The notes under the pieces: model-generated
What the model saw: the letters and a program-made list of their open reading frames with translations, nothing else
Told to the model about the DNA's origin: nothing
Database searches by the model: none
Translations under genes and position numbers: made by a program
Assembly: GCA_002898375.1 (NCBI GenBank)
Contig: BEIN01000007.1
Coordinates: 1-64,000 of the forward strand
Reading direction: 5' to 3'
DNA: 64,000 bases
From: a bacterium HR37
GTDB taxonomy: Bacteria; Desulfobacterota_D; UBA1144; Nemesobacterales; CSP1-2
Shown here: positions 1 through 15,712 of the stretch, in pieces
How positions within the stretch are numbered: the first letter of the stretch is position 1
Layout: every line of letters begins with the position of its first letter

Positions 1-957
1 AAAAGTTGTCAAAAAGGTAGAATCCGCCCACCAGAGATCCATGCTTCCCACACTGCTTCCACCACTGTTAAGCCCTGTAAAACCGACAAAGAAATTATCA
101 CCAAAAATTAGGTCTATAAAGCCAGTAAACGGAAGGGAAACAAACCCGGTTGTAGCTGAAGAAGTGCAGATGTTTGGTGCAGCACCCTTTGTGTTTGGAA
201 ACTGTGCACTTATACCAAACTCATAGTTTATGCGGTTTGTTGATATACCAAGAACATCCGCAATAAGCTCATTTGGCTCACCACAGGAAAAGACAACGAC
301 ATCACAGTCCCTTGGAACTTCTTGGTCATCAAATATAAAGACCGGAAACCCTGGATCAAAACCAAAAACAGCAGCTATTTGATTATTTGCCTCTACTGCT
401 CCAGTTCCTGCACCTGCAACGGTTATACCTATAACGTCTGAAAAGGCTGCCCCCCCTCTGTTGTTAAAGTTAAAGGAGTATAAAGAAGTTGGCTCACTAA
501 AAGGATCCCAGGCAGCAGCATTTGCCCTGTATTCGTATCCCGCATCATCTATAATCCTAAAGTTTCCTATAAGGGAGAAGTTAAAAACACTTTCAGTGCT
601 TGCAAGGCCTGTTACCTCTGTTACAACAACAAAACCAAACCCATCCGGGTCATCCTGAATAGCGCTTAGGTCATAAACGTTTGTATCGTTAGGGGTTAAG
701 GTATCCCAGAAGCTGTTTTCAAGACAATCCTCTGCATGGTTAAATACCTGAACGTGGATTACTACGGGGGAGTTGGTAACATTTGTTACCTGTATAAAGC
801 TATTTCTACCCCTTAAATCCCAGGGAAAGTAAAGCTGACTCTCACCGAGAAAATCAGAGTCTGGAATTAGAGTTGTTCCACCCCCCCACGACTTTACAGG
901 GATAAGAAGCAGAAAAGCAAGAAGCAAAACATACTTACTTAACATTTTTTTAAACAT
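1..957 (-). CDS. Secreted protein of unknown family, 3' end outside window
   Basis: The reading frame is open from ATG at 957 to the window edge (319 codons, no stop). The first residues are MFKKMLSKYVLLLAFLLL, a basic start followed by a hydrophobic core, so I read a Sec signal peptide ending near residue 22. The rest is rich in Asn, Gly, Phe and Thr, with few charged residues and a few Cys (for example in NHAEDCLE and PRDCD), as in exported beta-rich proteins. I do not recognise the family. AAAGGAGGATAGG precedes 957. A second in-frame ATG at 1005 has its own AAAAGGAGGAGG and would add 16 residues before the signal peptide; 957 is preferred because it puts the signal peptide at the terminus. 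Confidence 0.7.
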   Translation of the reverse strand, partial: MFKKMLSKYVLLLAFLLLIPVKSWGGGTTLIPDSDFLGESQLYFPWDLRGRNSFIQVTNVTNSPVVIHVQVFNHAEDCLENSFWDTLTPNDTNVYDLSAIQDDPDGFGFVVVTEVTGLASTESVFNFSLIGNFRIIDDAGYEYRANAAAWDPFSEPTSLYSFNFNNRGGAAFSDVIGITVAGAGTGAVEANNQIAAVFGFDPGFPVFIFDDQEVPRDCDVVVFSCGEPNELIADVLGISTNRINYEFGISAQFPNTKGAAPNICTSSATTGFVSLPFTGFIDLIFGDNFFVGFTGLNSGGSSVGSMDLWWADSTFLTTF

Positions 958-1233
958 AGAACCTATCCTCCTTTTTTTGTTATTTTTTAAAAACTCTCTA
1001 AACATAGACCTCCTCCTTTTGGGTTGATTTTTCTAAGGTTTTATTATTGCAGAAGAAAAAGGGATTTTCGGGTATCTTATCCATCCTCCTTTTAAGAGAA
1101 GCCCTACCCGAGGCTTTAATTTGGGTGAAATTACAACACACAAAAGGAAACTTGTCAAGCCCGATTTTCAAACTAAAGCCTGAGCAAGTTTCCTTTGACA
1201 TCTCTCCCAATCCTCCTTTAAAAACTCTATGCA
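958..1233 (-). promoter_or_regulatory. Long structured leader with four Shine-Dalgarno motifs
   Basis: Between the promoter and the ATG at 957 the minus strand carries four strong AGGAGG motifs, at about 1219-1211, 1093-1084, 1020-1009 and 978-966. The last two precede in-frame ATGs at 1005 and 957; the first precedes ATG 1199. A perfect 12-bp inverted repeat (AAAGGAAACTTG at 1143-1154 and its complement at 1185-1196) closes a 30-base loop. A 78-codon frame (998-1234) runs through the leader but looks like no known protein. I infer either repeated duplication of a translation-initiation segment or a regulatory leader; no known riboswitch class fits by eye. Confidence 0.45.
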
Positions 1234-1262
1234 ATTACATCACAAACAAAACCCATTGTCAA
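1234..1262 (-). promoter_or_regulatory. Sigma-70 type promoter for the secreted protein
   Basis: On the minus strand TTGACA (1262-1257), a 17-base spacer and TGTAAT (1239-1234) form a near-consensus promoter. Transcription would start near 1227 and give a leader of about 270 nt before the start codon at 957. Confidence 0.65.
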
Positions 1263-1341
1263 GGGTTTTAAGACATTATTTTTTAAAGGATGAAAGAGCA
1301 TTCTCCCGTTTTTTTAAAGCAAAGAATACACCTGAAAATAT

Positions 1342-1370
1342 TTGACACTCCCACGGCTAAAGCACGTGGG
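1342..1370. mobile_element. Solo IS200/IS605-type element end (relic)
   Basis: TTGACACTCCCACGGCTAAA and the following bases form a hairpin with arms CCCACG (1350-1355) and CGTGGG (1365-1370) around GCTAAAGCA. Read on the minus strand this is the right end typical of tnpB elements, ending in GTGTCAA. No transposase follows it; only this end remains. The rest of 1235-1484 shows nothing I can name. Confidence 0.5.
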
Positions 1371-1484
1371 ATTCCTTGCCAGATTTGCTATGATATGGTT
1401 CAGTTGCTAAAATTTTTTGCAGACAGTTCTTTGGACACTTGGAAATAGAATTTGCACAAAGTATTTAGAAAGAAAAAAGCTAAT

Positions 1485-1774
1485 ATGGATAAGGACGAAA
1501 GACTTAAAAAAGTAAAAGAGATTTTACCTAAGGTTAAGGAAATCCTTTCAAATATCTATGGGGATCGCCTTTTAGATGTTTTTCTATACGGCTCTTTTAC
1601 AAGGAATTCCTTTACAGAGGAGTCTGATATTGATATTGCATTGGTACTTAAGGGTGAAGTGAATAGAATTAAAGAGATTAAGAAATTATATGTATATCTT
1701 TAAAAGTACACATGAGATTAACTGAGGAAGACTATATATATGTGGACTCTTCTTTGGAAGTGCTTGCCTTGTAA
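1485..1774 (+). pseudogene. Frameshifted MNT-type nucleotidyltransferase (MntA-like)
   Basis: From ATG 1485 the frame gives a helix rich in Lys/Glu and then GSFTRNSFTEESDIDIALVL, the GSxxR...SDIDI motif of minimal nucleotidyltransferases (MntA/HEPN-MNT systems, where the enzyme modifies its HEPN toxin). The frame stops at 1703 after about 73 codons. The family-like continuation lies in other frames: YIFKSTHEIN just before a TGA, then EDYIYVDSSLEVLAL up to TAA at 1772-1774. At least two frameshifts are therefore needed to restore it. No HEPN partner follows; an IS relic lies directly downstream. The motif is clear, so the family call is firm and the decay is visible. Confidence 0.65.
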
Positions 1775-1837
1775 CAAAATATGCCACCCTTAAAAACCTC
1801 TTGTATCTTCCTTCCCTTTTATTCCTTAATCTATTTT

Positions 1838-1914
1838 GCCTCCTTAAGGTATACTGGATCATATCTAATTTATACCTTAAGGAGGCTACTTATACATATC
1901 TTTGCAACAGAGCA
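1838..1914 (-). mobile_element. Inverted relic of the insertion sequence also found at 8.1 kb
   Basis: The stretch ends with TTTGCAACAGAGCA (1901-1914), the same terminal repeat as at 8071-8084. Next to it is a perfect 16-bp inverted repeat, GCCTCCTTAAGGTATA (1838-1853) with its complement at 1870-1885. Element 8069-8543 has the same end followed by the same hairpin in the opposite orientation. Only one end is well kept; a weak match to the other terminal repeat may lie near 1765-1782. MNT and PIN gene fragments on its two sides suggest it interrupted older genes. Confidence 0.65.
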
Positions 1915-2085
1915 TATGAAACTTATAAAATAGCCAAGAAGTTAGCATAAAAGGATGTTGATTATTGGGATAGCTATCTTGTAGCAAGCAGCATAGAAAA
2001 CTCAGCCGATTTCTTTCTAACAGAAGAGAGGAAGCTAGAAGGTAGAAAAATAATGGGGGTTAAAACCATTAATCCTCTTATATAA
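1915..2085 (+). pseudogene. C-terminal fragment of a PIN-domain toxin
   Basis: In frame with TAT at 1915 the sequence reads YETYKIAKKLA, a stop at 1948-1950, then KDVDYWDSYLVASSIENSAD, FFLTEERKLEGRK and a final INPLI before TAA at 2083-2085. The YWDSYLVASSIE and FFLTEERKL patterns match the C-terminal half of PIN-domain (VapC-like) ribonucleases, which carry the late acidic residues here. The N-terminal half is missing, the left edge is the IS terminal repeat, and there is one in-frame stop, so it is dead. It may belong to the same family as the toxin start at 2506. Confidence 0.5.
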
Positions 2086-2155
2086 CACCTAATATTTTGA
2101 TTAATTTTTCAGTGTTATATACACTTATATCAAACTGTAAGTGGAGATAACAACC

Positions 2156-2509
2156 ATGGCATTAAAGAAATTTATTCTCAGGGGTAAAGAAGCCCATATA
2201 TCTAAAAAGGATATTGAAAAGGTTGCCCTAAAAAAAAGGATAGTTGGCAGAGGCAAAAACTACTATGCTTGCATCAACGGTAAAAGGATACCTGTTAAGA
2301 ACCTGCTTTATGAGGTTCTTAAGGAAAAAGGCTACGATGTAACACTTCTTGATTTTACAACTCAAGATGCTGTCAGGATACTGAGAAAACTGGGTGTTGA
2401 AATCCTAGAAGAAAGAGAGATAGGAACCGCAAAAGCCCTTTTAAAGTTTGCTGGAACTTTATCCATTGGAGGAGATGCTCTGGAAGACGAACGGAGACTA
2501 TGTGAATGA
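2156..2509 (+). CDS. Putative antitoxin of a VapBC-like pair
   Basis: A 117-residue basic-to-acidic protein; its end, LLKFAGTLSIGGDALEDERR, resembles the C-terminal tails of antitoxins that pair with PIN toxins. The stop TGA overlaps the ATG of a PIN reading frame in the arrangement ATGA (2506-2509), the usual coupling of antitoxin and toxin. GGAGAT 10 bases upstream supports ATG 2156 over an in-frame GTG at 2141. Residues 10-60 contain a segment like a small DNA-binding or regulatory domain that I cannot name. The partner toxin is broken by the TnpB element, so the antitoxin is now an orphan. The role comes mainly from position; the family is unsure. Confidence 0.55.
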   Translation: MALKKFILRGKEAHISKKDIEKVALKKRIVGRGKNYYACINGKRIPVKNLLYEVLKEKGYDVTLLDFTTQDAVRILRKLGVEILEEREIGTAKALLKFAGTLSIGGDALEDERRLCE

Positions 2510-2545
2510 TAGTTCTAGATACAAATATAGTAGTTGCCCTTCTCG
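2506..2545 (+). pseudogene. PIN-domain toxin start, cut by the TnpB element
   Basis: ATG 2506 overlaps the antitoxin stop and begins MIVLDTNIVVALLG, the first strand and first catalytic Asp of PIN-domain ribonucleases (V/I-LDTN). After 13 codons it runs into the right end of the TnpB element at 2546. Joining 2545 to 3801, the other side of the element, gives 10 more in-frame codons (GQLLYLPCFS) and then TAG. Nothing like the rest of a PIN domain lies beyond 3801, so the toxin had also lost its 3' end. Confidence 0.6.
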
Positions 2546-2575
2546 GTGAACTACTCCCAGCTTACGCAGGGAGCT
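2546..2575 (-). ncRNA. Right end and probable omega RNA 3' scaffold of tnpB
   Basis: On the minus strand the tnpB stop lies inside a stem of CTCCC and GGGAG, followed by TAGTTCAC. In TnpB elements the omega RNA covers the 3' part of tnpB and this end and continues into flanking DNA as the guide. The guide here would begin CGAGAAGGGCAACTAC (2545-2530). The 5' limit of the RNA cannot be seen. Confidence 0.45.
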
Positions 2576-3690
2576 TCTCCTGGGCTAAGCCCAAGAAGGC
2601 TAGTTCCTAGCCTTAAAATATTACGTGACGCATTAATGTCTCTATCAAGAACAATATGACATTTATTGCAAATATGAACCCTATCAGAAAGCAATTTTGG
2701 AACCCTAGCACCACAATTGCTACAGTTCTGGCTTGTCCCCCTTGGAGCTACCCCAATAGCATGCTTACCAGCACTCTCAGCCTTGTAAGCTATGTATTGG
2801 AGAAACCTACCCCAGGAACAATCCCCTATAGACTTAGCAAGATTGCCATTTTGCATCATATTCTTTATTTTCAAATCCTCAAATGCAATCAGGTCATAGG
2901 TATCTACAAGGTATCTACTAACCTTATGAAGAAAATCCCTTCTCTGATTGACTATCTTACGATGAATTTTAGCAACCCTAACCATTGCCTTCTCTCTGGC
3001 CTTAGTTCCCTTCCTTTTTCTAGAAAACACCCTCTGGGCTTCGGCAAGTTTGGACTCAGTCCTACCAAGATACCTGGGATTCTCAATCTTAGCTCCATCA
3101 CTCAACGTTGCAAAAGCGTCTATACCAACATCAATCCCTACTGCATTCCTTATAGGAACTTTATCCTTTCTATCTGGAATCTCAAAACTAACTATCGCAT
3201 ACCACCTATCAATTTCTTTTTTAAGAGTAAGAGTCTTAAGTCTAGCACCCTCAGGAAAATTACGGTGCCTCTTAACCCTGATTATCCCTATCTTAGAAAT
3301 CTGAATCTTTCTATCACTAAGAAACTGCCACCCACTTTGAGGATAACAAAAACTCTTATACCAGTTTCTACCTTTAAATCTTGGAAACCCTGGCTTCTCC
3401 CCCATCTTAAGCCTTCTAAAGAAAGCCCTAAAATTCTTATCCAACCTTCTAAGAACATCTTGAAGTACCTGGGAATGAACCTCTTCAAACTCAGGTCTAA
3501 CCTGTTTGATTTCTACGAGAGAGTTAGCCTGCTCAGTATAGGTAACATGGTATCTGGCTTTTTGCCAAGCAGAAATCCTATGCAGAAGGGCAGAGTTATA
3601 GAGCTCTCTACAAAGCTCAAGAGTGGATTCAAGTTTTTGAAGATGTGTTTTATTGGGGTAGAGCCGGAATTTGTAACTAAGCCTCAACAT
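2551..3690 (-). CDS. tnpB: TnpB RNA-guided nuclease, catalytic residues intact
   Basis: This 379-residue protein is full length for TnpB, the RNA-guided DNA nuclease ancestral to Cas12. The start LSYKFRLYPNKTHLQKLEST is the typical opening. The RuvC-like residues are D187 (GIDVGIDAF), E271 (AFEDLKIKNM) and D351 (LDRDINASRN); zinc-finger cysteines are C323/C326 (CSNC) and C341/C344 (CNKC). The last codons overlap the right-end hairpin, where the guide RNA (omega RNA) of these elements is produced. The guide would extend past 2546 into the flanking PIN toxin sequence. There is no sign of frameshift or missing motif, so it is probably active. Confidence 0.92.
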   Translation of the reverse strand: MLRLSYKFRLYPNKTHLQKLESTLELCRELYNSALLHRISAWQKARYHVTYTEQANSLVEIKQVRPEFEEVHSQVLQDVLRRLDKNFRAFFRRLKMGEKPGFPRFKGRNWYKSFCYPQSGWQFLSDRKIQISKIGIIRVKRHRNFPEGARLKTLTLKKEIDRWYAIVSFEIPDRKDKVPIRNAVGIDVGIDAFATLSDGAKIENPRYLGRTESKLAEAQRVFSRKRKGTKAREKAMVRVAKIHRKIVNQRRDFLHKVSRYLVDTYDLIAFEDLKIKNMMQNGNLAKSIGDCSWGRFLQYIAYKAESAGKHAIGVAPRGTSQNCSNCGARVPKLLSDRVHICNKCHIVLDRDINASRNILRLGTSLLGLSPGEAPCVSWE

Positions 3691-3721
3691 TGCAGATTAT
3701 ATACCAAGAAACAACACAATC

Positions 3722-3783
3722 AAGCCCTTACAGGCTTAGCTTTCCGTATCCCCAAGCTTAACGCTCTGGGGTCTTGGAAAGCT
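3722..3783 (-). repeat. Left-end stem-loops of the tnpB element
   Basis: Two hairpins lie upstream of tnpB. One has AGCTTTCC (3738-3745) pairing with GGAAAGCT (3776-3783) and an inner CCCCA/TGGGG stem (3750-3771). A smaller one has AAGCC/GGCTT (3722-3737). Such imperfect subterminal hairpins are what the Y1 transposase TnpA recognises in IS200/IS605 elements. Confidence 0.55.
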
Positions 3784-3850
3784 AAAAAAGATAAACGAAA
3801 GTCAATTGCTTTACCTGCCCTGTTTCTCCTAGCTAACTAACTTAAACCCT

Positions 3851-4309
3851 CTACTTAAGGCCAATTCTTTTATGATAGCAGTAAGTTATAAACCACTCTA
3901 TGCTTTCCTCTCTAACAAAAACTGGTTCTATACTGTAACCACTTATAAATCTTATTGTATCTACTACTTCTAAATTTGAAGGATCAGCCATAGCAACAAC
4001 CAACTTCTTTGAACCACTTTCTACCTTAAATTTAACTGGTACAGCCCTATATCTTCTTGCAACATGTTCAGGTATAAGGCCAATAACACCCTCATCAACC
4101 AACTCCTTACCCAGATCTATACTTTGAGCACCATGTTGCTTGCTAAGAAACTCTATAAGTTCATCCGTACTAATATATTCAAGCCTGGTAAGAACCTGAC
4201 CTAACTTCTCCCCAGTCCTTTTTTGTATCCCTAACGCCTGATTAAGCTGCTCTCTATTAATAAGACCAGCTTCAATAAGTAACTCTCCTAAACGTTTACC
4301 CCGCATCAT
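3851..4309 (-). CDS. Stand-alone MshEN (GspE/PilB N-terminal) domain protein
   Basis: 152 residues match only the N-terminal domain of type II secretion/type IV pilus ATPases: MRGKRLGELLIEAGLINREQ and LNQALGIQKRTGEKLGQVL are the paired RLG(E)xL...GLI...QL motifs, and DPSNLEVVDTIRF is the later part of the domain. MshEN domains often bind cyclic di-GMP. No Walker motifs follow, so it cannot be a secretion ATPase; it is more likely a regulatory or adaptor subunit. It is the last gene of the minus-strand block after the sensor kinase, though 224 bases and an inverted repeat separate them. Tandem ATGs at 4309 and 4306 leave the start uncertain by one residue. Confidence 0.75.
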   Translation of the reverse strand: MMRGKRLGELLIEAGLINREQLNQALGIQKRTGEKLGQVLTRLEYISTDELIEFLSKQHGAQSIDLGKELVDEGVIGLIPEHVARRYRAVPVKFKVESGSKKLVVAMADPSNLEVVDTIRFISGYSIEPVFVREESIEWFITYCYHKRIGLK

Positions 4310-4412
4310 AGTTTTCTAGCAAGCAGAAACAAAAGGAAGGCCCCTTTTTACTTGCAAAATAACTCCCTATATGATAATCTTTGGCAGACTTCCCTCTAAA
4401 TCCCTAGAAAAA

Positions 4413-4461
4413 GCTCCCTGAGATACTATGAATCACTACTCGGGAGGCTATCTCAGGGAGC
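4413..4461. terminator. Perfect 13-bp inverted repeat downstream of the kinase gene
   Basis: GCTCCCTGAGATA (4413-4425) pairs perfectly with its complement at 4449-4461 around a 23-base loop. It lies just after the kinase stop on the minus strand and could end its transcript, but there is no T-run, and the large loop is unusual. A transposon-derived palindrome is the alternative. Confidence 0.4.
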
Positions 4462-4533
4462 AACCACTTAGTAGAAGGCAAAATAATTCTACCCAACTTA
4501 TGTAACCTAACAAGATATAATTTTTCCTAACTC

Positions 4534-6903
4534 CTATAACACACTACCTGCCATCGATTTGGCAACTGAGCTAAATACGCTTAAAAACCTCTCCATTGTA
4601 AATGGCTTAAGAATATAAGCCCTACCCTCACCCTCTAAAAAACTATATACACTAGAGCTAACAATATCACCCGTAAGAAAAATAAAACCCTTAGCCATCT
4701 CAGGATCCACTTCCTTTACCCTCTTATATACCTCTATCCCATCTAAACCAGGCATATTAATATCACATATGATAAAATCATACCTTCCCCTTCCTAACTT
4801 CTCTAACCCCTCCCTACCATCATACGCCTTATCAACCCTATACCCCTCATAAGCAAGTATACCCTCAATAAGCTCCACTATCGATTCCTCATCATCAATC
4901 ACAAGAACACTCCCCCTAACCCCCACCTCCTGAACCCTACGCTCACTAACCTCCCCCTCTACCCCTACCCCCTCAATTAAATCAACCACAGGAAACTCAA
5001 CCACAAAAGTAGCACCACCTTCACAATCACCCAAATAAATCCTGCCCCCATGAGCCTCCACTATACCATATGAAACACTCAACCCAAGCCCAGTTCCCTT
5101 CCCCACAGGCTTTGTGGTAAAAAAAGGCTCAAATACCCTATCCCTATACTCAACAGGTATTCCAGGACCTGTATCAGAAAATACCACCCTTATCATACCA
5201 CCACACACCTCTGTCCTTATCACTAACTTCCTCTCCCCTCCCCACCCCACCATGGCATCCCAAGCATTGTTTATTATGTTTAAAAAAACCTGCTGCACCT
5301 CATTGGCATTAACCACAGTCCTTGGTAAATCCCTCGATAAATCCTTTACAATCTCTATACCATTTGCCCTAAACTTATAAACCACAAGCTCAAGTGTATC
5401 CTCAATAAGACCATTTATATCAACATAGCCCCTCTCCTCAGACTTATACCTCCTTGCAAACCTCAATAAACTACCAACTACCCTGCTTGCACCCTCGCCA
5501 GCATCCAAAATCTTCTTTAACTTATCCCTTACCTCGCTATCCAAACTAGAACGATTTAATAAAAGTTGAGAAAACCCTACAATAGGTGTAAGCTGATTGT
5601 TAATCTCATGTGCTACCCCAGAAATCATCGTCCCTAAAGCAGCAAGCTTTTCAGCTTGAATAAGCTCCCCCTGAAGTAATTCCCTCTCCCTCTCAAGCCT
5701 AACCCTCTCCGTTACATCCTCAACTAGGATAATAAACTCCTCCCCATGAAATATGCTAGAAAGCATAATATCCAACACCCTCTCACCCTTTTCTGGATGG
5801 TTATATCTGACCTTTGATAATTCTAAAATCTTATCCCCTCCTATAACAGAACTTGCCTGCTGCTCAAAACCCTCTATGGGAAGCACCTCATTAATACCCC
5901 TACCTAAAACATCCTTTACACCCAAAACCTCCTGAAATAAAAAATTTGCAATTAGAATCTTCTTATTCTTATCTAATACCGCTAGACCAATAGGCAAAAA
6001 TGAAATTGTATTGCGATACCTCTCCTCTGCCTCCTGAATCCTTCTTATAAACTTTGCGTTTTCGATTTTAAGAGCAAGGTTTCTTGCAAAAGTAACGGCT
6101 AGAGATTCATCCTCTTTGGTAAAAACCCCATTTTCCTCCTTTTCGATAAAATACAGTCCACCATAGACTTTACCATCTCTTCCCACTACTGGAACTCCTA
6201 AAAAAGTCTTCATTATCGGATGATTAGGTAGAAATGGTAACTGTCTTGGGTCTTTCGTTAAATCATCTAACCTGATAACTTCTCCCTCCTTGATTATAGC
6301 CCCCAAAAGACCTCTACCCTGAGGCAGGTCTCCAATAAGATTTACCTCATCTTCACTTAAACCACTATGGATAAATTCAATAAGCCTTCCTCTCTCATCA
6401 GTAAGCCCTATAGCACCGTATCTAGCTTGAATAAGCTCTCTTAAAGCAGAAATCCACTCTTTTAGCACTCTCCTTTCATCTTGAAAAGCCAGTATTTGTA
6501 AAAGCCTCAAGCTAATATTATAAAGTTCCTCAATTCTCTTACCTTTCTTACTGGTCTCCTCTTGCAGAGAAGCAAGATGACGAATTACCCGCTCACGAGA
6601 ACGAATAATTTGTCCTATCTCATTATTAGGAATATCCTTCTCAGGAATAAATTTCTTCTCTTCGTTACCAGAGATAAGATGTCTATCAGCCTCTATAATC
6701 TGGCCTATTGGGCGCAAAACTGTTTTCTCAAGATAAATCCAAAGGGGAAGCAATAGAAGGATAAGAAGTGAAACCACTGAAATAACATAAGAAATAGCGT
6801 AATCCTCCCCTGTTGCCCTAAGCAATAAAAAGAAAAGAAGGAGTACTAAAGGAAATGAAACCATTACATTTATAGCTCCATAGAGTAAAAACCTTAGTCG
6901 CAT
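4534..6903 (-). CDS. Hybrid sensor histidine kinase, start controlled by a repeat tract
   Basis: 789 residues from ATG 6903: two membrane helices (about 8-30 and 36-58), HAMP (58-110), GAF (about 135-285), PAS (about 295-400), HisKA with H432 in GVAHEINNQ, HATPase with the N box LNIINNAWDA (541-550), DTGPGI (577-582) and GKGTGLGLS (601-609), then a receiver domain with D670/D671, phospho-acceptor D714 (CDINMP) and K766. It should autophosphorylate and pass phosphate to its own receiver; no DNA-binding output is present. The gene follows the mini sigma-54 gene. The coupled start (ATG 7012, good Shine-Dalgarno) is out of frame because of the GTGA tract, and ATG 6903 has only a weak AAGG before it. 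Expression is therefore probably phase variable. Confidence 0.85.
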   Translation of the reverse strand: MRLRFLLYGAINVMVSFPLVLLLFFLLLRATGEDYAISYVISVVSLLILLLLPLWIYLEKTVLRPIGQIIEADRHLISGNEEKKFIPEKDIPNNEIGQIIRSRERVIRHLASLQEETSKKGKRIEELYNISLRLLQILAFQDERRVLKEWISALRELIQARYGAIGLTDERGRLIEFIHSGLSEDEVNLIGDLPQGRGLLGAIIKEGEVIRLDDLTKDPRQLPFLPNHPIMKTFLGVPVVGRDGKVYGGLYFIEKEENGVFTKEDESLAVTFARNLALKIENAKFIRRIQEAEERYRNTISFLPIGLAVLDKNKKILIANFLFQEVLGVKDVLGRGINEVLPIEGFEQQASSVIGGDKILELSKVRYNHPEKGERVLDIMLSSIFHGEEFIILVEDVTERVRLERERELLQGELIQAEKLAALGTMISGVAHEINNQLTPIVGFSQLLLNRSSLDSEVRDKLKKILDAGEGASRVVGSLLRFARRYKSEERGYVDINGLIEDTLELVVYKFRANGIEIVKDLSRDLPRTVVNANEVQQVFLNIINNAWDAMVGWGGERKLVIRTEVCGGMIRVVFSDTGPGIPVEYRDRVFEPFFTTKPVGKGTGLGLSVSYGIVEAHGGRIYLGDCEGGATFVVEFPVVDLIEGVGVEGEVSERRVQEVGVRGSVLVIDDEESIVELIEGILAYEGYRVDKAYDGREGLEKLGRGRYDFIICDINMPGLDGIEVYKRVKEVDPEMAKGFIFLTGDIVSSSVYSFLEGEGRAYILKPFTMERFLSVFSSVAKSMAGSVL

Positions 6904-7012
6904 CCTTGATACTCTCGTGAGTGAGTGAGTGAGTGAGTGAGTGAGTGAGTGAGTGAGTGAGTGAGTGCAAACTCATGCCAGTTTTGTTTTTCCATTCTTT
7001 TTCTATTTCCAT
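6818..7012 (-). other. Out-of-frame upstream reading frame of the kinase gene
   Basis: ATG 7012 follows the sigma-54-like gene's stop by one base (TGAGATG) and has AGAGGGTGAG as Shine-Dalgarno. It encodes MEIEKEWKNKTGMSLH, four SLTH repeats from the GTGA tract, then an unrelated tail that ends inside the kinase gene at 6818. The distance to ATG 6903 is 109 bases, one more than a multiple of three. I read this as the present OFF (or reduced) state of the kinase gene, with 6903 as a possible fallback start. Confidence 0.6.
6917..6967. repeat. (GTGA)12.75 tetranucleotide tract at the kinase 5' end
   Basis: Twelve perfect GTGA units plus GTG, 51 bases with no mismatch (TCAC on the coding minus strand). 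No stop codon is possible in any frame of this unit. It begins 14 bases upstream of ATG 6903 and lies inside the frame that opens at ATG 7012. Loss of one unit or gain of two would join ATG 7012 in frame to the kinase. Slipped-strand change of such tracts is the known mechanism of contingency loci. Confidence 0.95.
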
Positions 7013-7013
7013 C

Positions 7014-7712
7014 TCACCCTCTATATCTATAAGATGGAATTCCTAAGAGCTTACGATACTTTGCAACAGTACGTCTTGAGATCTTTAATCCCTGCAAATT
7101 TAAACAGGTAGCTATCACTTCATCACTAAAAGCCTCTTCTTCATTGTTTATAATGCTTAAAATAGCTCTACATATGGTTTCTTTTCTTCTACCACTACCT
7201 AAAAGCTGTCTCATTGATATCTCACCAAAGGGGGTTAAAACACGTTTCCTTCTGGTTACCCTACTTACAATGGATTCATGAAACCCGCTTAGCTTCGCTA
7301 GAGCCCGAATTGTAAGAGGCAGAGGCAAATCACTAATACCCAAAACATAGGAACGCTGAACTTCGATTAATTTTTGTGAAACCCTTTCTAGTATCTCCCT
7401 CCTTTTACTAATGCCCTTTATTATCCAGGCAGCCTCATTATACAACTTTACTTCCTCTTTTGAAGCTTGATCCCCCAAAGGTTTAAGTCTTAAGTTTGGT
7501 AATCCTTTATCATTTATAAAAAAATTATAATTCCCATTCCAATACCTGACAATCACATCACACTCTAAAGGAACATCAATAGGGAAAGGAAGAACCAAAT
7601 CCTCCTCTAAGAATGGATTCTCAATTAACTTTTCCTTAACAAACAGGATAAGCTCAAGCTTCCCAAACTCAAGAAGAGATATAGCCATATGAACCATAGG
7701 GGTTACACGCAT
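7014..7712 (-). CDS. Miniature sigma-54 (RpoN-like) protein, 232 residues
   Basis: Sigma-54 factors are usually about 400-500 residues; this one has 232. Residues 1-37 match the second part of Region I (VTPMVHMAISLL...IENPFLEED). Residues 52-80 match the late core-binding part (VIVR...NDKGLPNLRLKPLG). Residues 93-125 match the WIIKGISKRREILERV helix, 136-175 the helix-turn-helix (FHESIVSRVTRRKRVLTPFG), and 212-221 the RpoN box (SRRTVAKYRK; usual ARRTVAKYRE). Region II and the first half of the core-binding domain are absent. A stop codon two codons upstream of ATG 7712 rules out a longer start. It would bind -12/-24 type promoters; whether it still binds RNA polymerase is open. It is coupled to the phase-variable kinase gene. 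Confidence 0.8.
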   Translation of the reverse strand: MRVTPMVHMAISLLEFGKLELILFVKEKLIENPFLEEDLVLPFPIDVPLECDVIVRYWNGNYNFFINDKGLPNLRLKPLGDQASKEEVKLYNEAAWIIKGISKRREILERVSQKLIEVQRSYVLGISDLPLPLTIRALAKLSGFHESIVSRVTRRKRVLTPFGEISMRQLLGSGRRKETICRAILSIINNEEEAFSDEVIATCLNLQGLKISRRTVAKYRKLLGIPSYRYRG

Positions 7713-8068
7713 TAGCTACAATTCTGTATTAATAGAATTCCCTAGAATTAAAAAACAAAGCTAATTTCCCATCATAGAAACCATCTTACTTGATGTAAAA
7801 TTCCTCATAATTAATAGGTTCATCACCGAAATATGTCAATATATTTGATGCTGTTATAGAACTTTCTCATTATAGAACAATTCAGGCAAAAACAGAACTT
7901 GCTGAGTTTCTGTTAGTATGTTTACATACGAAATCCTAATTTATGTATTAACCCCCTTTGATATAAAATACGATTTAAGCAAGAAGATACCCAAGAGAGT
8001 TATCAAAATACTCTTTTAAACCCGTATCTTTTAGAAGAATAAAAATCAGGAAAGAAAAAATGTAATAA
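7713..8068. other. 356-base gap, no convincing gene
   Basis: AT-rich DNA between the mini sigma-54 gene and the IS relic. A 42-codon plus-strand frame without start (about 7815-7941, reading FDAVIELSHYRTIQAKTELA in its middle) could be gene debris, but I cannot assign it. No clear promoter, tRNA or riboswitch was seen. Confidence 0.4.
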
Positions 8069-8543
8069 GTTGCTCTGTTGCAAAGATATAGATAAGAAGC
8101 CTCCTTAAGGTATAAATTAGACATGGTTAAGTACACCCTAAGGAGGCAAAACAGATTTAATAGTAATTTTAATCTTAAGGGGTTTGTGGAAGTGGGAATA
8201 TGATATTTGGACTTCCAATAAGGGTTATTCCTCCCATAAGGCGTGGAGGGGGTATAAAGAGTTGGAATAGGATATTGGCTTATATGGTCTATAGGATTTC
8301 AAAATGGATGGGGGTTTATGGCAAGAGGTGGCTTTGTGAGACAATTAACTCAGTGATTAAGAGAAAGTTTGGAGACAGCATAAGGGAAAGAAAGTGGGGA
8401 AATAAAAAGAAGATCGTATCCCTTATGACTATAGTTTATAACATACATGTGATTGTAAGGGATGGAGGGGAAAACCAATTCTTGCTATTACTTGTTTTCC
8501 TCTCATTTAAATCAATTAAAAATGATGTTTGCAACAGAGCAAC
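8069..8543 (+). mobile_element. Internally deleted insertion sequence with 16-bp terminal repeats
   Basis: GTTGCTCTGTTGCAAA (8069-8084) and its exact complement (8528-8543) bound a 475-bp element. Inside, the left end has a subterminal hairpin (8099-8147), then only the C-terminal part of a DDE transposase. Transposases of this kind are about 300 residues, so roughly the first half to two thirds is gone and the element cannot move itself. No clear target duplication is visible. An inverted partial copy lies at 1838-1914. Confidence 0.75.
8099..8147. repeat. Subterminal hairpin of the insertion sequence
   Basis: GCCTCCTTAAGGTATA (8099-8114) pairs with GTACACCCTAAGGAGGC (8131-8147) with a few mismatches. 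The same structure, perfectly paired, sits next to the same terminal repeat at 1838-1885. It may stop transcription entering the element or help transposase binding; this is inference. Confidence 0.55.
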
Positions 8544-8595
8544 CCTTGATAATAACCTTAAAAAGTTTATAAATTCGCCTGTTAAAGGAGGCTAG
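8200..8595 (+). pseudogene. C-terminal fragment of a DDE (IS4/IS5-type) transposase
   Basis: The frame reads SWNRILAYMVYRISKWMGVY and then ETINSVIKRKFGD, the third catalytic Glu with the E-x6-K pattern of DDE transposases, followed by IVYNIHVIV, typical of the IS4/IS5 C terminus. The first two catalytic Asp residues are missing. After about 8470 the frame runs on through the right terminal repeat and stops outside the element at 8595, so the original stop is lost as well. It is not a working gene. Confidence 0.7.
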
Positions 8596-8623
8596 CCATT
8601 TATAAAACGGGCTAGCCTCCTTT
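8584..8623. terminator. Bidirectional terminator after the glycine-zipper lipoprotein gene
   Basis: AAAGGAGGCTAGCC (8584-8597) and its perfect complement (8610-8623) form a 14-bp stem with a 12-base loop. Read on the plus strand the stem runs into TTTT. It ends four bases from the lipoprotein stop on the minus strand. Confidence 0.75.
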
Positions 8624-8627
8624 TCCC

Positions 8628-9080
8628 CTAGTACTGATACCCTGGTTCGTATTTTTCAGACTCACATACCTCTTTTACCTCATCCTTTACAAGCTTTCCC
8701 TCCTGCCAGATTCTTTCCCGAACCTTATGGCACTTTGTGCTTGCATCGTATCCAACAGGGGTTGCCTCAACCCTCTGAAAACCATCGTTACTCTGATAGA
8801 CTACAGGCCTTCCCTGCATTGCGGCCTCGCGTGCTGCCCTCTGTGAGATCTCTGTAACCGTTGCAGCAGCAACTCCACCTATTAAAGCACCAAGAACCCC
8901 TCCACGCCACCTGTTCTTCTTATCAATCAACGTACCTGCAAGGGCTCCAAGCCCGGCACCAACAGCCCCTGCCTCATATGTGCGCTGACTCGTAGCACAG
9001 GAGGTAAGAAACGCTGATGTTCCAAAAAGAGAGAAAACAAGGGCAATGGAGAGAAGAACAGAAATCACCTTTACCTTCAT
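8628..9080 (-). CDS. Glycine-zipper 2TM lipoprotein
   Basis: 150 residues with a signal sequence (MKVKVISVLLSIALVFSLFG) and the lipobox LTSC near residue 28, so the mature protein is a lipid-anchored envelope protein. Residues 38-75 hold the glycine-zipper pattern (GAVGAGLGALAGTLIDKKNR, then GGVLGALIGGVAAA) of the SlyB/17-kDa antigen class, which packs in or on the outer membrane. The C-terminal part, with CHKVRERIWQEGKLV and VCESE, resembles the tail seen in many such proteins. AAGGAGGA precedes ATG 9080. It has its own strong terminator and so is probably transcribed alone. Function is likely envelope integrity, inferred from the family. Confidence 0.85.
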   Translation of the reverse strand: MKVKVISVLLSIALVFSLFGTSAFLTSCATSQRTYEAGAVGAGLGALAGTLIDKKNRWRGGVLGALIGGVAAATVTEISQRAAREAAMQGRPVVYQSNDGFQRVEATPVGYDASTKCHKVRERIWQEGKLVKDEVKEVCESEKYEPGYQY

Positions 9081-9158
9081 TTTTTGAAATCCTCCTTTAT
9101 ATAGAATCTACCTAATAATATTAAACCTGAAATTAAAGAAAAAGTAACGTATAAGTTC

Positions 9159-9362
9159 TTACATTTGCACCTTTCTTAGCGCCCTTTTAAATTCTCTAAC
9201 ATAGATCCTTTTAATCCTTTCAAAAATCTCTCTCGAAGCTTCTTTATCATAAAGATGAACGCTTATGTTTCTATCATCTAGCATTTTAAGCCATACATTT
9301 TCTTTATCTATAATTCCCATCTGATAAGCCTCTTTTAGGCAACTCTTTGGACTCTTAACCTC
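9159..9362 (-). pseudogene. HEPN/HI0074-type nucleotidyltransferase partner, 5' end lost
   Basis: In one open frame ending at TAA 9161-9159 the minus strand reads SPKSCLKEAYQMGIIDKENV, then WLKMLDDRNISVHLYDKEAS. This is the SPRxxxREA...GLI...W..ML.DRN...H.YD pattern of the HI0074 (nucleotidyltransferase substrate-binding, HEPN-like) family, including the R-x4-6-H type motif (DRNISVH). The frame is closed upstream by a stop at 9365-9363 and has no start codon, so about half the protein is missing. It follows the MNT gene 9384-9752 as expected for an MNT/HEPN pair. Confidence 0.6.
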
Positions 9363-9383
9363 TTATCCTTTTAACCTTTTATC

Positions 9384-9752
9384 TTATCCTGCTCTACCCT
9401 TTTCATAAACTGTAATTCCCTCTCTAAGAATCTCCCTTCTTAACCTCTTATTTACCTTTCTTAAATTAACAATATTAAATTTTAGAAGAGTTGAAACCTC
9501 CTCATCCAATATCTCACCGGGAAATACTATATCCCCTTTACAATCAATAGCTATATCTATATCTGAGGTTTTCCTATAGTCACCTCTTGCCCTAGAACCA
9601 GATATTATAATCCTCTCCGGATTTAAATACCTTACAATTACACGAACAATATTTTCTAATAAATCGCCTGGCAAACCCGGTTTCCTAAATACGCGCTCAT
9701 CCTTTTTTAAAGAGGAACTTATTTTGTACGTTTTACCCCAAGACATCAACAA
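9384..9752 (-). CDS. MNT-domain nucleotidyltransferase (MntA-like)
   Basis: 122 residues with SGSRARGDYRKTSDIDIAID, the complete GSRARG...SDIDIAID signature of minimal nucleotidyltransferases, and a later strand, TLLKFNIVNL, that normally supplies the third acidic residue (here not obvious). MntA enzymes AMPylate their HEPN partner and act as antitoxins. The partner gene next to it is truncated, so this copy may be an antitoxin left without its toxin. The first about 25 residues are poorly conserved and a later start is possible. Confidence 0.7.
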   Translation of the reverse strand: MLMSWGKTYKISSSLKKDERVFRKPGLPGDLLENIVRVIVRYLNPERIIISGSRARGDYRKTSDIDIAIDCKGDIVFPGEILDEEVSTLLKFNIVNLRKVNKRLRREILREGITVYEKGRAG

Positions 9753-9804
9753 ATAAGGTAACGCAGGTTTTTAGCCAATACAACGGTTATGTTAAATTAT
9801 TTCA

Positions 9805-10176
9805 GTGGCAAAGGTTAGGGCTTTGATACTGGTAGCAAAGGACTGGAGGGAAAGGGCCTTTATAAGGGCCGAGCTTATTGAGGAGGGTATAAGAACGCTT
9901 GCTGTAGAAGATATGGATGAGGCTGAGAAGTGGCTTAAAGACCCCGAGATAGTTCCCATGATAATAGTCTACGATACAAAGTATCAGGAAAACGTAAGAG
10001 ATGACATAAACCGCCTTCTCAAGTACTCCTCTTCCGTTCCCGTGCTTATAATTGCAGGTGCCTCTGAAAAGAAGGCACTTGGCACAGAGCCTGGGAAACT
10101 CTATGTGGTTTCAAGACCGATAACCATAGGGGAGGTTGTAAGAAAGGTAAAAGAGATTCTCATGAAGGGAATTTGA
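9805..10176 (+). CDS. Receiver-like domain protein, degenerate
   Basis: A 123-residue single-domain protein with the alternating strand/helix pattern of CheY-like receivers. IIVYDTKYQ would hold the phospho-acceptor Asp and VVSRPITIGEV the region where receivers have KPF; here the Lys is Arg, and the acidic pair at the start is missing (ALILVAKDWRER). It is probably a non-canonical or pseudo-receiver that signals without phosphorylation. The start is GTG at 9805. The peptidase gene follows after 57 bases and may be cotranscribed. Confidence 0.5.
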   Translation: MAKVRALILVAKDWRERAFIRAELIEEGIRTLAVEDMDEAEKWLKDPEIVPMIIVYDTKYQENVRDDINRLLKYSSSVPVLIIAGASEKKALGTEPGKLYVVSRPITIGEVVRKVKEILMKGI

Positions 10177-10233
10177 GAAGAAAAAACACTGTGATACTAT
10201 AAAAGAAACCCTTAATTTTAAGGAGATAGAGAC

Positions 10234-13146
10234 TTGAAAAGGATCCTTAGAATTACAAGATACACAAATATCCTTTTTATAATAGCCCTTGCCTATCTCT
10301 TTGTTTTCTCCTCAACCTTTGAGGGCTTTAGAGGGGAAACAAAAAAGGCAAACCTGAGCATTCTTCCGCTTGTTACACAGTACGTAAAGAGGTACTACGT
10401 TGACCACTCAGCCATACACCCAAGGCTCATGGTGGTTAAAGGGCTTGAAAAACTTGAAAGAAGCCTTGATGAGGTACTTGTTGATTTCCCCGAGGGGGAG
10501 AGGAGTCAGTACTTTACAGTCCAGGTTGGAAACGAAAAGAAGAGATTTGACATGAGAAAGGTAGAGAACATAACCAGTGCAGCAGACACCGTAGAAGAGG
10601 TATTCGGTTTTATAATCCCGCGTGTTAGCCTTGATGGTAAAAAAATATCAGATATCGAGTACGCGGTGGTTGATGAGATGCTAAAGACCCTTGATCCGCA
10701 CTCAGGAATAATCCCCCCACAGGTCTATAGAGAGTTTATGATAGAGACAGAGGGTAGCTTTGGAGGGCTCGGTATAGTAATAGGTATAAGAGACGGGCAG
10801 CTTACCGTAATTGCCCCAATTGAGGGAACACCCGCATACAGGGCAGGTATTAAGCCAAATGATAGAATCGTTCAGATAGAGGATGAGTCCACCATAAACA
10901 TGTCCCTTATAGAAGCTGTAAGCAAGCTCAGAGGTCCAAAGGGAACCACCGTAAACATATACATAATGAGGGAAGGGTTTTCAGAACCAAAGAGGTTCTC
11001 CATAGTAAGGGACATAATAAAGATTGAAAGCGTAGAGGCGTTTAACCTCGGAGACGGGGTCGGGTACATAAGGATAAGGGACTTTCAGAAGAACACACTA
11101 AGCAGCCTGGAGGAAGAGCTAAACAGGTTAAAAAGAGAGGGCAATCTCAAAGGAATAGTGCTTGACCTTAGAGGAAACCCCGGAGGTCTCCTTGACCAGG
11201 CAGAAAAGATCTCGGATCTCTTTCTTAGCAACGGTGTTATAGTTACAACAAAGGTTGGCAACTCCAAAAAGAGATACCGTGCAAGGGAAGAAGAAAGAGA
11301 CTTTAAGGGAAGAATCATAGTGCTTGTAGACTCAGGAAGTGCAAGTGCCTCAGAGATAGTAGCAGGTGCCTTAAAGAACAACCAGAGGGCTCTGGTTATG
11401 GGCGAGAAGACCTTCGGTAAGGGCTCTGTTCAGCAGATCTTTGACCTTACAAACAACTCTGCACTGAAACTAACAATAGCCTCATACCTTACCCCGGGGG
11501 ATATATCCATACAGGATGTGGGGATAACACCGGATATAGCCGTTCACCCTGCAATCGTATCAAAGGAGGAGATAAAACTCATTCCCTCGTTTGAAGAAAA
11601 CAAAGACACCAAAAAACCCCTTTACTCGATAACCTATCTTGAAACCAATAAAAACACAGGAGAGGATGAAGAGCAAACCCCTGAGGAAGCCCTAAGCCGT
11701 GAAGAGAGAAGAAAGAAGCTGGAGGGGGATTTCTATGTAAAGACCGCAAAGGAGCTTATCCTCTCCTCACACTCAATCTCAAGAAACGAGATGCTAAAAG
11801 AGGTAAAGGAAAAGCTTGAAGAGATATCAAGAAACGAGGAAAGAAAGATAGAGGAGAGGATGAAGGCACTTGGTGTTGACTGGTCCCTTGAGGGGGATCT
11901 GGCTTCATCTTCTCCCAGCCTCTCCGTTAAGGTAAGCCCAAGCCCTCTTAGGGTTAAAGCAGGGGAGAAGGTCTCCCTATCAGTTGAGGTAAAAAACACA
12001 GGACAGACCCCTCTTTTTAGGCTTATGGCTGTAGCAAAATCGGATAACCCTGTATTTAACGGAAAGGAGTTTGTCTTTGGAAGGGTAAATCCCGGGGAGA
12101 AAAGAAGCTGGAGTGTTACCCTTGAGGTTCCAAAGTGGGCTCTTACACGGGAAGACATGGTTACACTTGAGTTTAAGGATGCCTTTAACTCAAACATACC
12201 GGATTTTGCCTTTGATATAAGAACCGAGGGACTTTCCCGTCCCCTCTTTGCTTTTAACTACGCTGTCATAGACGATGGGAGTTTTGGTTCCTCAGGAAAC
12301 GGAGATGGGATACCAGAGGTTGGAGAAACCATTGCCCTTCTTGTCAGGGTAAAAAACACAGGGAAGGGGGTCTCTGAAAAGAGCATACTAACTATTAAGA
12401 ACCTATCTGGGGATAAGGTGTTTTTAAAAAAAGGCAGGGCAGAGTTTTCCAGTCTAAAACCTGGAGAGGTAAAGGATGCCACCCTTCTCTTTAGCCTCAA
12501 AAAACCAGACTCAAAGATAGATATGGAGGTTCAGATTCTAGATGAGGTCTTTAGAGACGGTATAACAACAAAGGTCTCCCTTCCGGAAGAGGAAAAGGAA
12601 GAGGAGTTTGTAAAGAGGGTATTTAGGGCTGTTGTGTTAAGGGATGGAACTCCCATAAGGGGAGGGAGTTTTTCGGAAGCACCTGTTCTTGCAGTATCCC
12701 AGAAAGGGGCTGTGTTTAGGGCAGTTGGGGAAAACACCAACTGGGTAAAGGTAGAGCTTGGCAAAGACCTTTACGGATGGATACAGAAGGCAGAGTTAAG
12801 GCTTGAGGGACAGAACCTCTTTTCTCCCCTAAACGATTCAAAGTTTACAGAGGTATTTGAGGAAGCCCCTTTTATAGAGATAACCCCCCCACCACTTACC
12901 ACAAGCTCTAGGGAGGTAGAGCTTAAGGGAACTATAAGGGATAAAGACGGGGTAAGACTCGTCTCTGTCTTTGTTGGAGATAATAAAGTTGAGCTTTTAC
13001 CCGCAAAGGAAAAGACCCTTCCCGTATCGTTTAGAGTGGAGCTAAACGAAGGGGTAAACGTAATTACCGTTTTCGCAAAGGACTCAAAAGGGCTCTTTGT
13101 AAAGGAAAGCTTTGTTGTAAGAAGAGGCACAGGGGAAGAAACGTAG
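10234..13146 (+). CDS. Very long S41 C-terminal processing peptidase
   Basis: 970 residues, about twice a typical CtpA/Prc. The start is TTG 10234 with AAGGAGAT upstream. One N-terminal membrane anchor (about 14-30) places the rest in the periplasm. A PDZ domain (about 165-250) contains GGLGIVIGIRDG and GIKPNDRIVQI. The S41 domain has the Ser/Lys dyad S371 (GSASASEI) and K396 (GEKTFGKGSV). After about residue 550 come two repeats of a beta-sandwich (CARDB-like) built on SLSVEVKNTGQTP and LLVRVKNTGKG, an SH3-like segment (WVKVELGKDLYGWIQKAEL) and a last Ig-like domain. The layout recalls long Myxococcota S41 peptidases. Substrate unknown; a role in processing envelope proteins is inferred. Confidence 0.88.
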   Translation: MKRILRITRYTNILFIIALAYLFVFSSTFEGFRGETKKANLSILPLVTQYVKRYYVDHSAIHPRLMVVKGLEKLERSLDEVLVDFPEGERSQYFTVQVGNEKKRFDMRKVENITSAADTVEEVFGFIIPRVSLDGKKISDIEYAVVDEMLKTLDPHSGIIPPQVYREFMIETEGSFGGLGIVIGIRDGQLTVIAPIEGTPAYRAGIKPNDRIVQIEDESTINMSLIEAVSKLRGPKGTTVNIYIMREGFSEPKRFSIVRDIIKIESVEAFNLGDGVGYIRIRDFQKNTLSSLEEELNRLKREGNLKGIVLDLRGNPGGLLDQAEKISDLFLSNGVIVTTKVGNSKKRYRAREEERDFKGRIIVLVDSGSASASEIVAGALKNNQRALVMGEKTFGKGSVQQIFDLTNNSALKLTIASYLTPGDISIQDVGITPDIAVHPAIVSKEEIKLIPSFEENKDTKKPLYSITYLETNKNTGEDEEQTPEEALSREERRKKLEGDFYVKTAKELILSSHSISRNEMLKEVKEKLEEISRNEERKIEERMKALGVDWSLEGDLASSSPSLSVKVSPSPLRVKAGEKVSLSVEVKNTGQTPLFRLMAVAKSDNPVFNGKEFVFGRVNPGEKRSWSVTLEVPKWALTREDMVTLEFKDAFNSNIPDFAFDIRTEGLSRPLFAFNYAVIDDGSFGSSGNGDGIPEVGETIALLVRVKNTGKGVSEKSILTIKNLSGDKVFLKKGRAEFSSLKPGEVKDATLLFSLKKPDSKIDMEVQILDEVFRDGITTKVSLPEEEKEEEFVKRVFRAVVLRDGTPIRGGSFSEAPVLAVSQKGAVFRAVGENTNWVKVELGKDLYGWIQKAELRLEGQNLFSPLNDSKFTEVFEEAPFIEITPPPLTTSSREVELKGTIRDKDGVRLVSVFVGDNKVELLPAKEKTLPVSFRVELNEGVNVITVFAKDSKGLFVKESFVVRRGTGEET

Positions 13147-13149
13147 AGG

Positions 13150-14079
13150 ATGTTAAGGTTTGCTCTAAGTCGCTTTCTTACAGGAGCCTTTGTTGTTTTT
13201 TCCGTAGCTTCGCTAACCTTCTTTCTGCTAAGGGTTCTGCCAGGAGGTCCTTTTGACACAGAGAAGAAGCTTCCACCTGAGATCCGCAGAAACATCGAGG
13301 CAAAATACGGACTTTCTAAACCCATCTGGAAACAATACACAGACTACATAACAGGCCTTTCCCGTGGGGACTTTGGCCCCTCATTCAAATACATAGACAG
13401 GTCGGTAAACGATATAATAAAGGAGACGCTTCCCGTATCGCTAAAGCTCGGGATAGCAGCCCTTTTTGTATCCACAACCGCAGGAATCCTGATAGGTGCA
13501 CTTTCAGCTACCCGTCCAAAAAGTGTTCTTGACCTTTTAAACCTCTCCCTTGCAACCGTACTTGTTTCGGTTCCCAGTTTCGTTGTAGGTGCCGTGGTTA
13601 TCTATGTGTTCTCCTTAAAGCTTGGCTGGTTTCCAGCAGCACTCTGGGGAAACCTAGAGCACATGGTTCTTCCAACCATTACCCTCGCAGCAGCACCCAC
13701 AGCCTATATATCCCGCCTTACAAGGGCAAGTATGCTTGAGGTATCGGAGAGCCTTTTTGTAAGAACGGCAAGGGCAAAGGGGCTTGGAGAAATAAGGGTT
13801 GTTTTAAAGCACATACTAAGAAACGCCCTTATACCTGTTGTAACGGTTCTTGGGCCAATAGCAGCTTACCTTGTAACGGGCTCATTTGTTGTGGAGCACA
13901 TATTTGCGATACCGGGAATGGGAAGGTTTTTTGTCATTGCGGTATCAAACAGAGACTACCCACTTGTAATGGGAATAACCGTTGTGTATACGGCTGTGCT
14001 TGTTCTTGCAAACCTGATTGTAGATATCCTGTATGCCCTACTTGATCCCAGGATAAAATTTGAGAGGGAAACAGTTTAG
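13150..14079 (+). CDS. OppB/DppB-type ABC transporter permease
   Basis: 309 residues with six predicted membrane helices. The start RFALSRFLTGAFVVFSVASL with the following LPGGPFD is the typical OppB/DppB N terminus, and ARAKGLGEIRVVLKHILRNA is the EAA loop that contacts the ATPase. The family imports peptides, nickel or sugars together with an OppC permease, two ATPases and a binding protein. None of these are nearby: the gene sits three bases after the peptidase and eight bases before truA. It is intact, so partners must be encoded elsewhere. Confidence 0.9.
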   Translation: MLRFALSRFLTGAFVVFSVASLTFFLLRVLPGGPFDTEKKLPPEIRRNIEAKYGLSKPIWKQYTDYITGLSRGDFGPSFKYIDRSVNDIIKETLPVSLKLGIAALFVSTTAGILIGALSATRPKSVLDLLNLSLATVLVSVPSFVVGAVVIYVFSLKLGWFPAALWGNLEHMVLPTITLAAAPTAYISRLTRASMLEVSESLFVRTARAKGLGEIRVVLKHILRNALIPVVTVLGPIAAYLVTGSFVVEHIFAIPGMGRFFVIAVSNRDYPLVMGITVVYTAVLVLANLIVDILYALLDPRIKFERETV

Positions 14080-14086
14080 GGATTAG

Positions 14087-14857: not shown

Positions 14858-14903
14858 CTATAACCAGACAAACGGGGCAATCCACTTTTAAGGAGGAAAT
14901 AAG

Positions 14904-15683: not shown

Positions 15684-15712
15684 AGACAACCCCCAAGAGA
15701 GGAGAATCCGAT

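Follow-up and report, generated by a model that had tools for sequence, protein, structure and literature searches.

Contig BEIN01000007.1 of the bacterium HR37, whose genome (33 contigs, 2.42 Mb) is 97.6% complete, carries a small group of minus-strand genes within the stretch analysed here (positions 1 to 64,000, hereafter the window). They code for an unusually short relative of sigma-54 (RpoN), which we refer to as mini sigma-54, a hybrid histidine kinase, and a stand-alone MshEN protein, and are read in the order mini sigma-54 (7712 to 7014), kinase (6903 to 4534) and MshEN protein (4309 to 3851), in agreement with the positions and common direction given in an earlier note on this DNA. 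The first two genes are separated by a perfect tetranucleotide tract that lies within a short leader open reading frame (ORF). The features of the locus, with the evidence for each, are as follows.

7014–7712, minus strand: mini sigma-54, 232 aa (Pfam AID and DBD domains, AlphaFold, Foldseek)
6818–7012, minus strand: leader ORF of 64 aa at the assembled tract length (frame reading, computed Shine-Dalgarno pairing)
6966–6980, minus strand: candidate -24/-12-like sequence, TGGCATGAGTTTGCA (pattern scan)
6917–6967, minus strand: tetranucleotide tract of 12.8 perfect CTCA copies, as read on the coding strand (repeat search)
4534–6903, minus strand: hybrid histidine kinase, 789 aa (Pfam domains, motifs)
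4413–4461, no strand: 13-bp perfect inverted repeat in the interval between the kinase and MshEN genes (repeat search)
3851–4309, minus strand: stand-alone MshEN protein, 152 aa (Pfam, NCBIfam, motifs)

Mini sigma-54 is encoded separately from the ordinary RpoN of this genome, a 497 aa protein on contig C15 (G000:C15) in which Pfam finds all three sigma-54 domains (AID, CBD and DBD). Its strongest match is to the DNA-binding domain (Sigma54_DBD, PF04552; 3.6e-29), with both the helix-turn-helix (HTH) and the RpoN box present, and residues 3–37 match Sigma54_AID (PF00309; 1e-5, score 25.7 against a cut-off of 23.8), so that the short sigma-54 relative of the earlier note is confirmed as an AID plus DBD protein without a CBD. 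Alignment shows that it begins inside region I, with the usual N-terminus short of about its first 20 residues, and that region II is missing, as is most of the core-binding domain (CBD). There is no Pfam match to the CBD (PF04963), which in the genome's own RpoN covers residues 101–320; the residues from about 51 on align just ahead of the DBD, over some 40 residues that take in the end of the CBD span. The CBD is the chief contact of sigma-54 with RNA polymerase (RNAP), and the proposal that this is a sigma factor in need of an activator is doubtful with most of that domain missing. The match to the NCBIfam equivalog TIGR02395 (137.1 bits) falls below the cut-off of 277.35, compared with 410.7 bits for the genome's own RpoN, and we therefore regard the protein as a sigma-54 derivative whose sigma-factor activity is only putative.

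The retained parts were compared with 47 full-length RpoNs, a set with many close relatives of one genus and from which one row cut at a contig edge (L085) was dropped. At the columns conserved in at least 95% of these sequences mini sigma-54 has the commonest residue in 26 of 30 cases; the corresponding counts are 13 of 26 for columns conserved at 80–95%, 29 of 72 at 50–80%, and 17 of 97 below 50%. The RpoN-box residues R213, R214, T215, A217, K218, Y219 and R220 are intact. Unconstrained drift to the branch length that we find for this protein (see below) would not be expected to spare near-invariant columns. An AlphaFold model, built from an alignment that included six named full-length relatives, has a pLDDT of 81.6 and contains the helices of region I, a long helix of 39 residues (85–123), the HTH and the RpoN domain. 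Foldseek returns 29 matches to the model at E ≤0.001, with sigma-54 in RNAP complexes among them, and the best has an E value of 4.8e-10 over 209 columns, with a TM of 0.55 by query and an rmsd of 5.8. The predicted fold is a sigma-54 from which region II and the greater part of the CBD are missing.

The short sigma-54 gene was seen in one genome. In a search of 100 genomes, among them the 57 phylum genomes covered here (HR37 included), 88 gave a match, and no short sigma-54 gene was found in the other 56 phylum genomes, where a contig edge truncates the frame of G016 and makes its length uninformative. The shortest other matching frames among the 88 matching genomes have 168 (G016), 348 (G062) and 394 codons (G033), compared with 233 for the window gene, and those of G016 and G062 both run into the contig edge; three of the 57 phylum genomes (G007, G010 and G014) have no match. 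A second search covered 386 genomes, with 313 matching, and the window gene is the only RpoN of less than 300 codons among the matches listed, outside which weakly scoring short RpoNs may lie; the frames of G195 (308 codons) and G250 (373 codons) end at a contig edge by their coordinates. Small phylum searches around G310 (two genomes) and G365 (three genomes) gave nothing at the strict cut-off and are little informative. Because the genus is represented by one genome, the absence is informative for the phylum and not for the genus.

In a phylogenetic tree mini sigma-54 falls outside the RpoN clade of its own phylum (support 100/99) on a very long branch (2.48). Approximately unbiased (AU) tests do not reject its grouping with its own phylum (p 0.073) or with the four RpoN rows of its family (p 0.068), nine long or partial rows having been dropped in one tree and AU-test run, and an origin by duplication or by transfer would be compatible with both the tree and the tests. 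A phage or plasmid source is unsupported. Matches were found in 220 plasmid records (identity of 33.5% or less among the best 30 of the 220) and in 13 phage records (32.5% or less), and three plasmid matches that we inspected, including the two best-covering, are full-length rpoN genes of 443–479 codons. No relative of mini sigma-54 came up in scans of viral contigs and of genome contigs, and a search for viral folds gave no match at E 0.001.

The earlier note proposed a genome scan for -24/-12 sites. Sites of the canonical spacing (TGGCAYR-N4-TTGC) number 40 in the genome, compared with an average of 2.8 per spacer over nine other spacers, and there are 11 strong matches to sigma-54 activator AAA domains (four weaker matches are probably other AAA proteins). 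With these and a full-length RpoN, ordinary sigma-54 regulation is very likely to operate beside the mini sigma-54 gene. Just upstream of the tract, and abutting it, is the candidate site TGGCATGAGTTTGCA (TGGCATG-N3-TTGCA), whose spacer is one base below the canonical GG-N10-GC. The chance expectation for such sites in the gap at spacers 3 and 5 is about 1e-4, an optimistic figure because the sequence was first spotted by eye. Sites with spacer 3 are not enriched (three genome-wide against the background mean of 2.8), and we reject the idea that TGGCATGAGTTTGCA belongs to a regulon of them; one of the other two, at 17335–17349, is internal to an unrelated gene. Around the cluster, promoter-like sites are about as frequent as chance predicts, with 19 found and 15.7 expected. 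Given the shortened linker between the HTH and the RpoN domain (see below), TGGCATGAGTTTGCA could be considered a candidate operator, purely as an idea for testing.

Elsewhere in the window a canonical -24/-12-like site, TGGCATGGAAATTGCT (19789–19804, minus strand), is associated with an Hsp20 gene (19274–19843, minus strand); as judged by eye it lies a few tens of bases upstream of the likely ATG, and the product is possibly a sigma-54-dependent small heat-shock protein.

The second gene encodes a hybrid histidine kinase with a receiver and no output domain, as the earlier note described it. Pfam identifies GAF, HisKA, HATPase_c and REC domains, with PAS only below the cut-off and no output domain after REC, and the motifs include the HisKA histidine (H432), ATP-binding boxes (N-box NAWDA at 546, G-box GKGTGLGLS at 601), and the receiver residues (DDE at 670, D714 and K766). 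The N-terminus is hydrophobic by eye, and the kinase is probably membrane-anchored. Its first 262 residues are covered by no other match (E ≤1e-60) in the 57 phylum genomes. Two frames with an Hpt domain, of 573 and 121 codons, are present in the genome. The 3’ half of the kinase gene (4537–5673, minus strand) is extremely poor in C, with 9% C and 34% G on the coding strand and 4% C at third positions.

The 110-base interval between the sigma stop codon and the kinase ATG contains the tract, (GTGA)12.8 at 6917–6967 with 100% matches. A 20-mer of the CTCA unit, the only unit searched for genome-wide, occurs nowhere else in the genome, and the tract is the sole array of at least five CTCA units that was found. 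The leader ORF opens with an ATG at 7012, one base past the sigma stop codon (TGA-G-ATG), traverses the tract and overlaps the kinase start, so the coupling of the first two genes proposed earlier is borne out through a leader whose frame is set by the tract. At the assembled tract length the leader has 64 codons, is out of the kinase frame, and ends about 85 bases past the kinase start. Frame computation shows that loss of one unit or gain of two would fuse the leader to the kinase and that the assembled length and a gain of one would not; with one added unit the leader ends just after the kinase ATG. Computed Shine-Dalgarno pairing is -6.3 kcal/mol for the leader, the best of the starts compared, and -3.4 for the kinase. 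The tract is a pure repeat whose unit number sets a reading frame, as in simple sequence repeat contingency loci, and since the leader frame depends on unit number and the leader has the stronger ribosome site, it is plausible as a translational contingency device. The phase-variable kinase of the earlier note stands in part: the tract does set the frame of the leader; it lies outside the kinase as called from the ATG at 6903, and variability is a prediction from the frames.

We tentatively propose that the core of the locus consists of two genes, a core-less sigma-54 that would compete with RpoN at -24/-12 sites or for its activators, and a kinase that may be a contingency locus, with the MshEN protein being separate. 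Mini sigma-54 would act as a promoter-bound or activator-binding competitor and not as a working sigma factor, and competition is the simplest action to suggest because most of the CBD is missing while region I, the ELH, the HTH and the RpoN box are kept. Ribosomes that finish the sigma gene would restart at the ATG at 7012 and read through the tract, such that translation of the kinase would depend on slippage of the CTCA units. A loss of one unit would produce a leader–kinase fusion, a gain of one would stop ribosomes just past the kinase ATG with efficient restart possible, and at the assembled length they would be carried, in the wrong frame, some 85 bases beyond the kinase start, which should lower kinase expression. 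The receiver could then pass its phosphate to an Hpt domain elsewhere, in one of the two Hpt-domain frames. A more elaborate form, to which we give little credence, is that mini sigma-54 is a natural, selected anti-sigma-54 ‘roadblock’ that sits on -24/-12 promoters or titrates activators, possibly with a preference for a spacer one base shorter that would extend to an operator lying between the mini sigma-54 gene and the slippage-controlled kinase, so that sigma-54 output would be damped, linked to the kinase, and variable from cell to cell.

Several observations weigh against the competitor proposal. The linker between the HTH and the RpoN domain is about 8–10 residues shorter than usual by alignment, so DNA binding is not assured, and four near-invariant residues are changed (P51C, G126I, T148I and F171L). 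RpoN conservation is itself inflated by the richness of the comparison set in close relatives of one genus, and the very long branch also fits relaxed constraint. The start of mini sigma-54 has no Shine-Dalgarno pairing (computed +0.2 kcal/mol), and the gene set is known from one genome, with the tract known at one length from one assembly. With an ATG of its own and a moderately good ribosome site, the kinase may also be free of control by the tract.

The alternative that survives best concerns the tract, and it is possible, if doubtful, that this has no switching role, with the kinase always being translated from the ATG at 6903 and the repeats being neutral intergenic sequence. By eye this ATG opens a typical short cytoplasmic segment followed by a membrane helix, and it has modest Shine-Dalgarno pairing of its own; on the other side, neutral sequence would have to hold 12.8 perfect copies in the sole array of the CTCA unit found, within an ORF that begins one base past the upstream stop and has the better ribosome site. 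It is unlikely, we think, that mini sigma-54 is a functionless remnant of an acquired or duplicated rpoN, with internal deletions and near loss, in an unstable region marked by transposase remnants. Its long branch, its occurrence in one genome, the lack of ribosome-site pairing at its start, and the TnpB gene (2551–3690) and transposase-like fragment (8200–8595) that flank the region would all suit a remnant; however, 232 codons stay open, 26 of 30 near-invariant columns are kept despite great divergence, and the predicted fold is sigma-54-like with fairly good confidence.

A working minimal sigma factor, in which region I and the long helix hold RNAP at few promoters, perhaps with a shorter -24/-12 spacer, is improbable. 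The retention of region I, the ELH, the HTH and the RpoN box, the shortened linker, and the TGGCATG-N3-TTGCA sequence with its low chance expectation are in line with such a role, but the main RNAP-binding domain is mostly absent and spacer-3 sites are neither enriched nor, in the case of 17335–17349, intergenic. Least probable of all is the joint module of the earlier note, in which sigma factor, kinase and MshEN protein would together switch promoters for surface structures: the three genes are adjacent, on one strand and share C-poor third positions, but the short sigma was not seen elsewhere in the phylum, the gene order is unique to this genome as far as phylum sampling reaches, an outcome that the earlier note took to refute the module, MshEN relatives lie in other contexts, a 224-bp gap with an inverted repeat precedes the MshEN gene, and two further genes are equally C-poor.

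The composition referred to is a third-position C content of 0.05–0.09 in the mini sigma-54, kinase and MshEN genes, compared with 0.11–0.25 in all but one of the 16 other minus-strand genes of the window that were tabled. The exception, a 366-base gene at 9387–9752, has 0.06, as does an unlinked kinase paralogue on contig C12, so composition argues weakly for a shared foreign origin of the three genes.

The competitor proposal has partial parallels in known systems. Relative to sigma-54 as defined by the Pfam AID-CBD-DBD order and TIGR02395, mini sigma-54 shares region I, the DNA-binding domain, the RpoN box and the predicted fold of the parts kept, and differs in its length of 232 aa, the absence of region II and of a Pfam CBD, the score below the TIGR02395 cut-off, and the shorter HTH–RpoN linker. 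The ‘molecular roadblock’ RpoN* is an engineered 60-aa C-terminus of Aquifex RpoN that is described as binding -24 sites and repressing in P. aeruginosa (PMC5626770). By analogy mini sigma-54 would likewise occupy -24 elements without bringing RNAP; unlike that engineered fragment it is natural and keeps region I, the ELH and the HTH, and its repression is predicted. Truncated RpoNs in some Neisseria are also natural sigma-54 derivatives and are the opposite case, in that the reported loss includes the DBD (PMC12316311), whereas mini sigma-54 keeps the DBD, loses most of the CBD, and occurs in a genome with a full RpoN. CmrRST of C. difficile is a phase-variable two-component system for which the methods of the study list an invertible element (PMC6837544); signal transduction that varies within a clone, proposed here, would be common to both, and the device at this locus would be a tetranucleotide tract in a leader ORF with predicted switching. 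Among the open-access papers listed in our searches, we recognised none on a natural competitor made from sigma-54. If the proposal is correct, mini sigma-54 would be such a competitor, built from sigma-54 itself. It could then be used to find out how much of sigma-54 is needed to occupy promoters and contact activators in vivo, and whether competition with sigma-54 serves bacteria as a form of bet-hedging.

The third gene is probably an independent neighbour of the sigma–kinase pair. Its 152-aa product matches Pfam MshEN (1.4e-18) and the NCBIfam c-di-GMP_motif model NF053729 (69.6 bits against a cut-off of 38), which upholds the earlier assignment to the c-di-GMP type, binding itself being predicted. 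MshEN c-di-GMP receptors are described as having two 24-residue motifs with a 5-residue spacer (PMC5013675), and the window protein has the same architecture, with 24-residue motifs at 6–29 and 35–58 and a 5-residue spacer, as found with a relaxed pattern. Motif II has four departures from the printed consensus (R to K, hydrophobic to T, G to E, and hydrophobic to Y), and the protein differs from those receptors in this divergence and in being stand-alone, without an ATPase.

MshEN matches are present in 19 of the 57 phylum genomes, mostly in frames of 400–720 codons, a size that would fit pilus-type ATPases. Shorter frames with 53–62% identity are found in G001 (one on C19 and two on C44), in G005, and elsewhere in HR37 (G000), and G020 has a 168-codon frame with 36% identity. 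The stretches around these short relatives in G001, G005 and G000 contain no RpoN and no ORF of at least 90 aa that matches mini sigma-54, and the only match to the window kinase in them is via a receiver (G001:C44, where a 644-aa frame adjoins this receiver gene). A 224-bp gap holding the 13-bp inverted repeat separates the MshEN gene from the kinase, and the MshEN gene would encode a separate c-di-GMP receptor of a type with several copies in the family. A stand-alone paralogue, 60% identical, has a gene for a GAF-AAA sigma-54 activator about 1 kb away (L072:4640-13233, G000:C20), and several -24/-12 sites of canonical spacing occur in the same stretch. A family relative encodes a GGDEF-EAL protein with a C-terminal MshEN domain (L076:4906-6717, plus strand), in which synthesis, breakdown and sensing of c-di-GMP are possibly combined in one chain.

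No Rfam match was found in positions 1–20000 of the window. Traces of mobile elements lie on both sides of the cluster. Adjoining it at 2551–3690 (minus strand) is a TnpB gene of the IS605 type, with Pfam matches to OrfB_IS605 and a Cas12f1-like TNB domain. On the other side, 8069–8624 is probably a decayed insertion element; it contains a transposase-like fragment at 8200–8595 (DDE_Tnp_1, below the Pfam cut-off). Inverted repeats of 19 bp that are 95% complementary lie nearby at 8069–8087 and 8525–8543, as does a perfect 14-bp hairpin (8584–8623).
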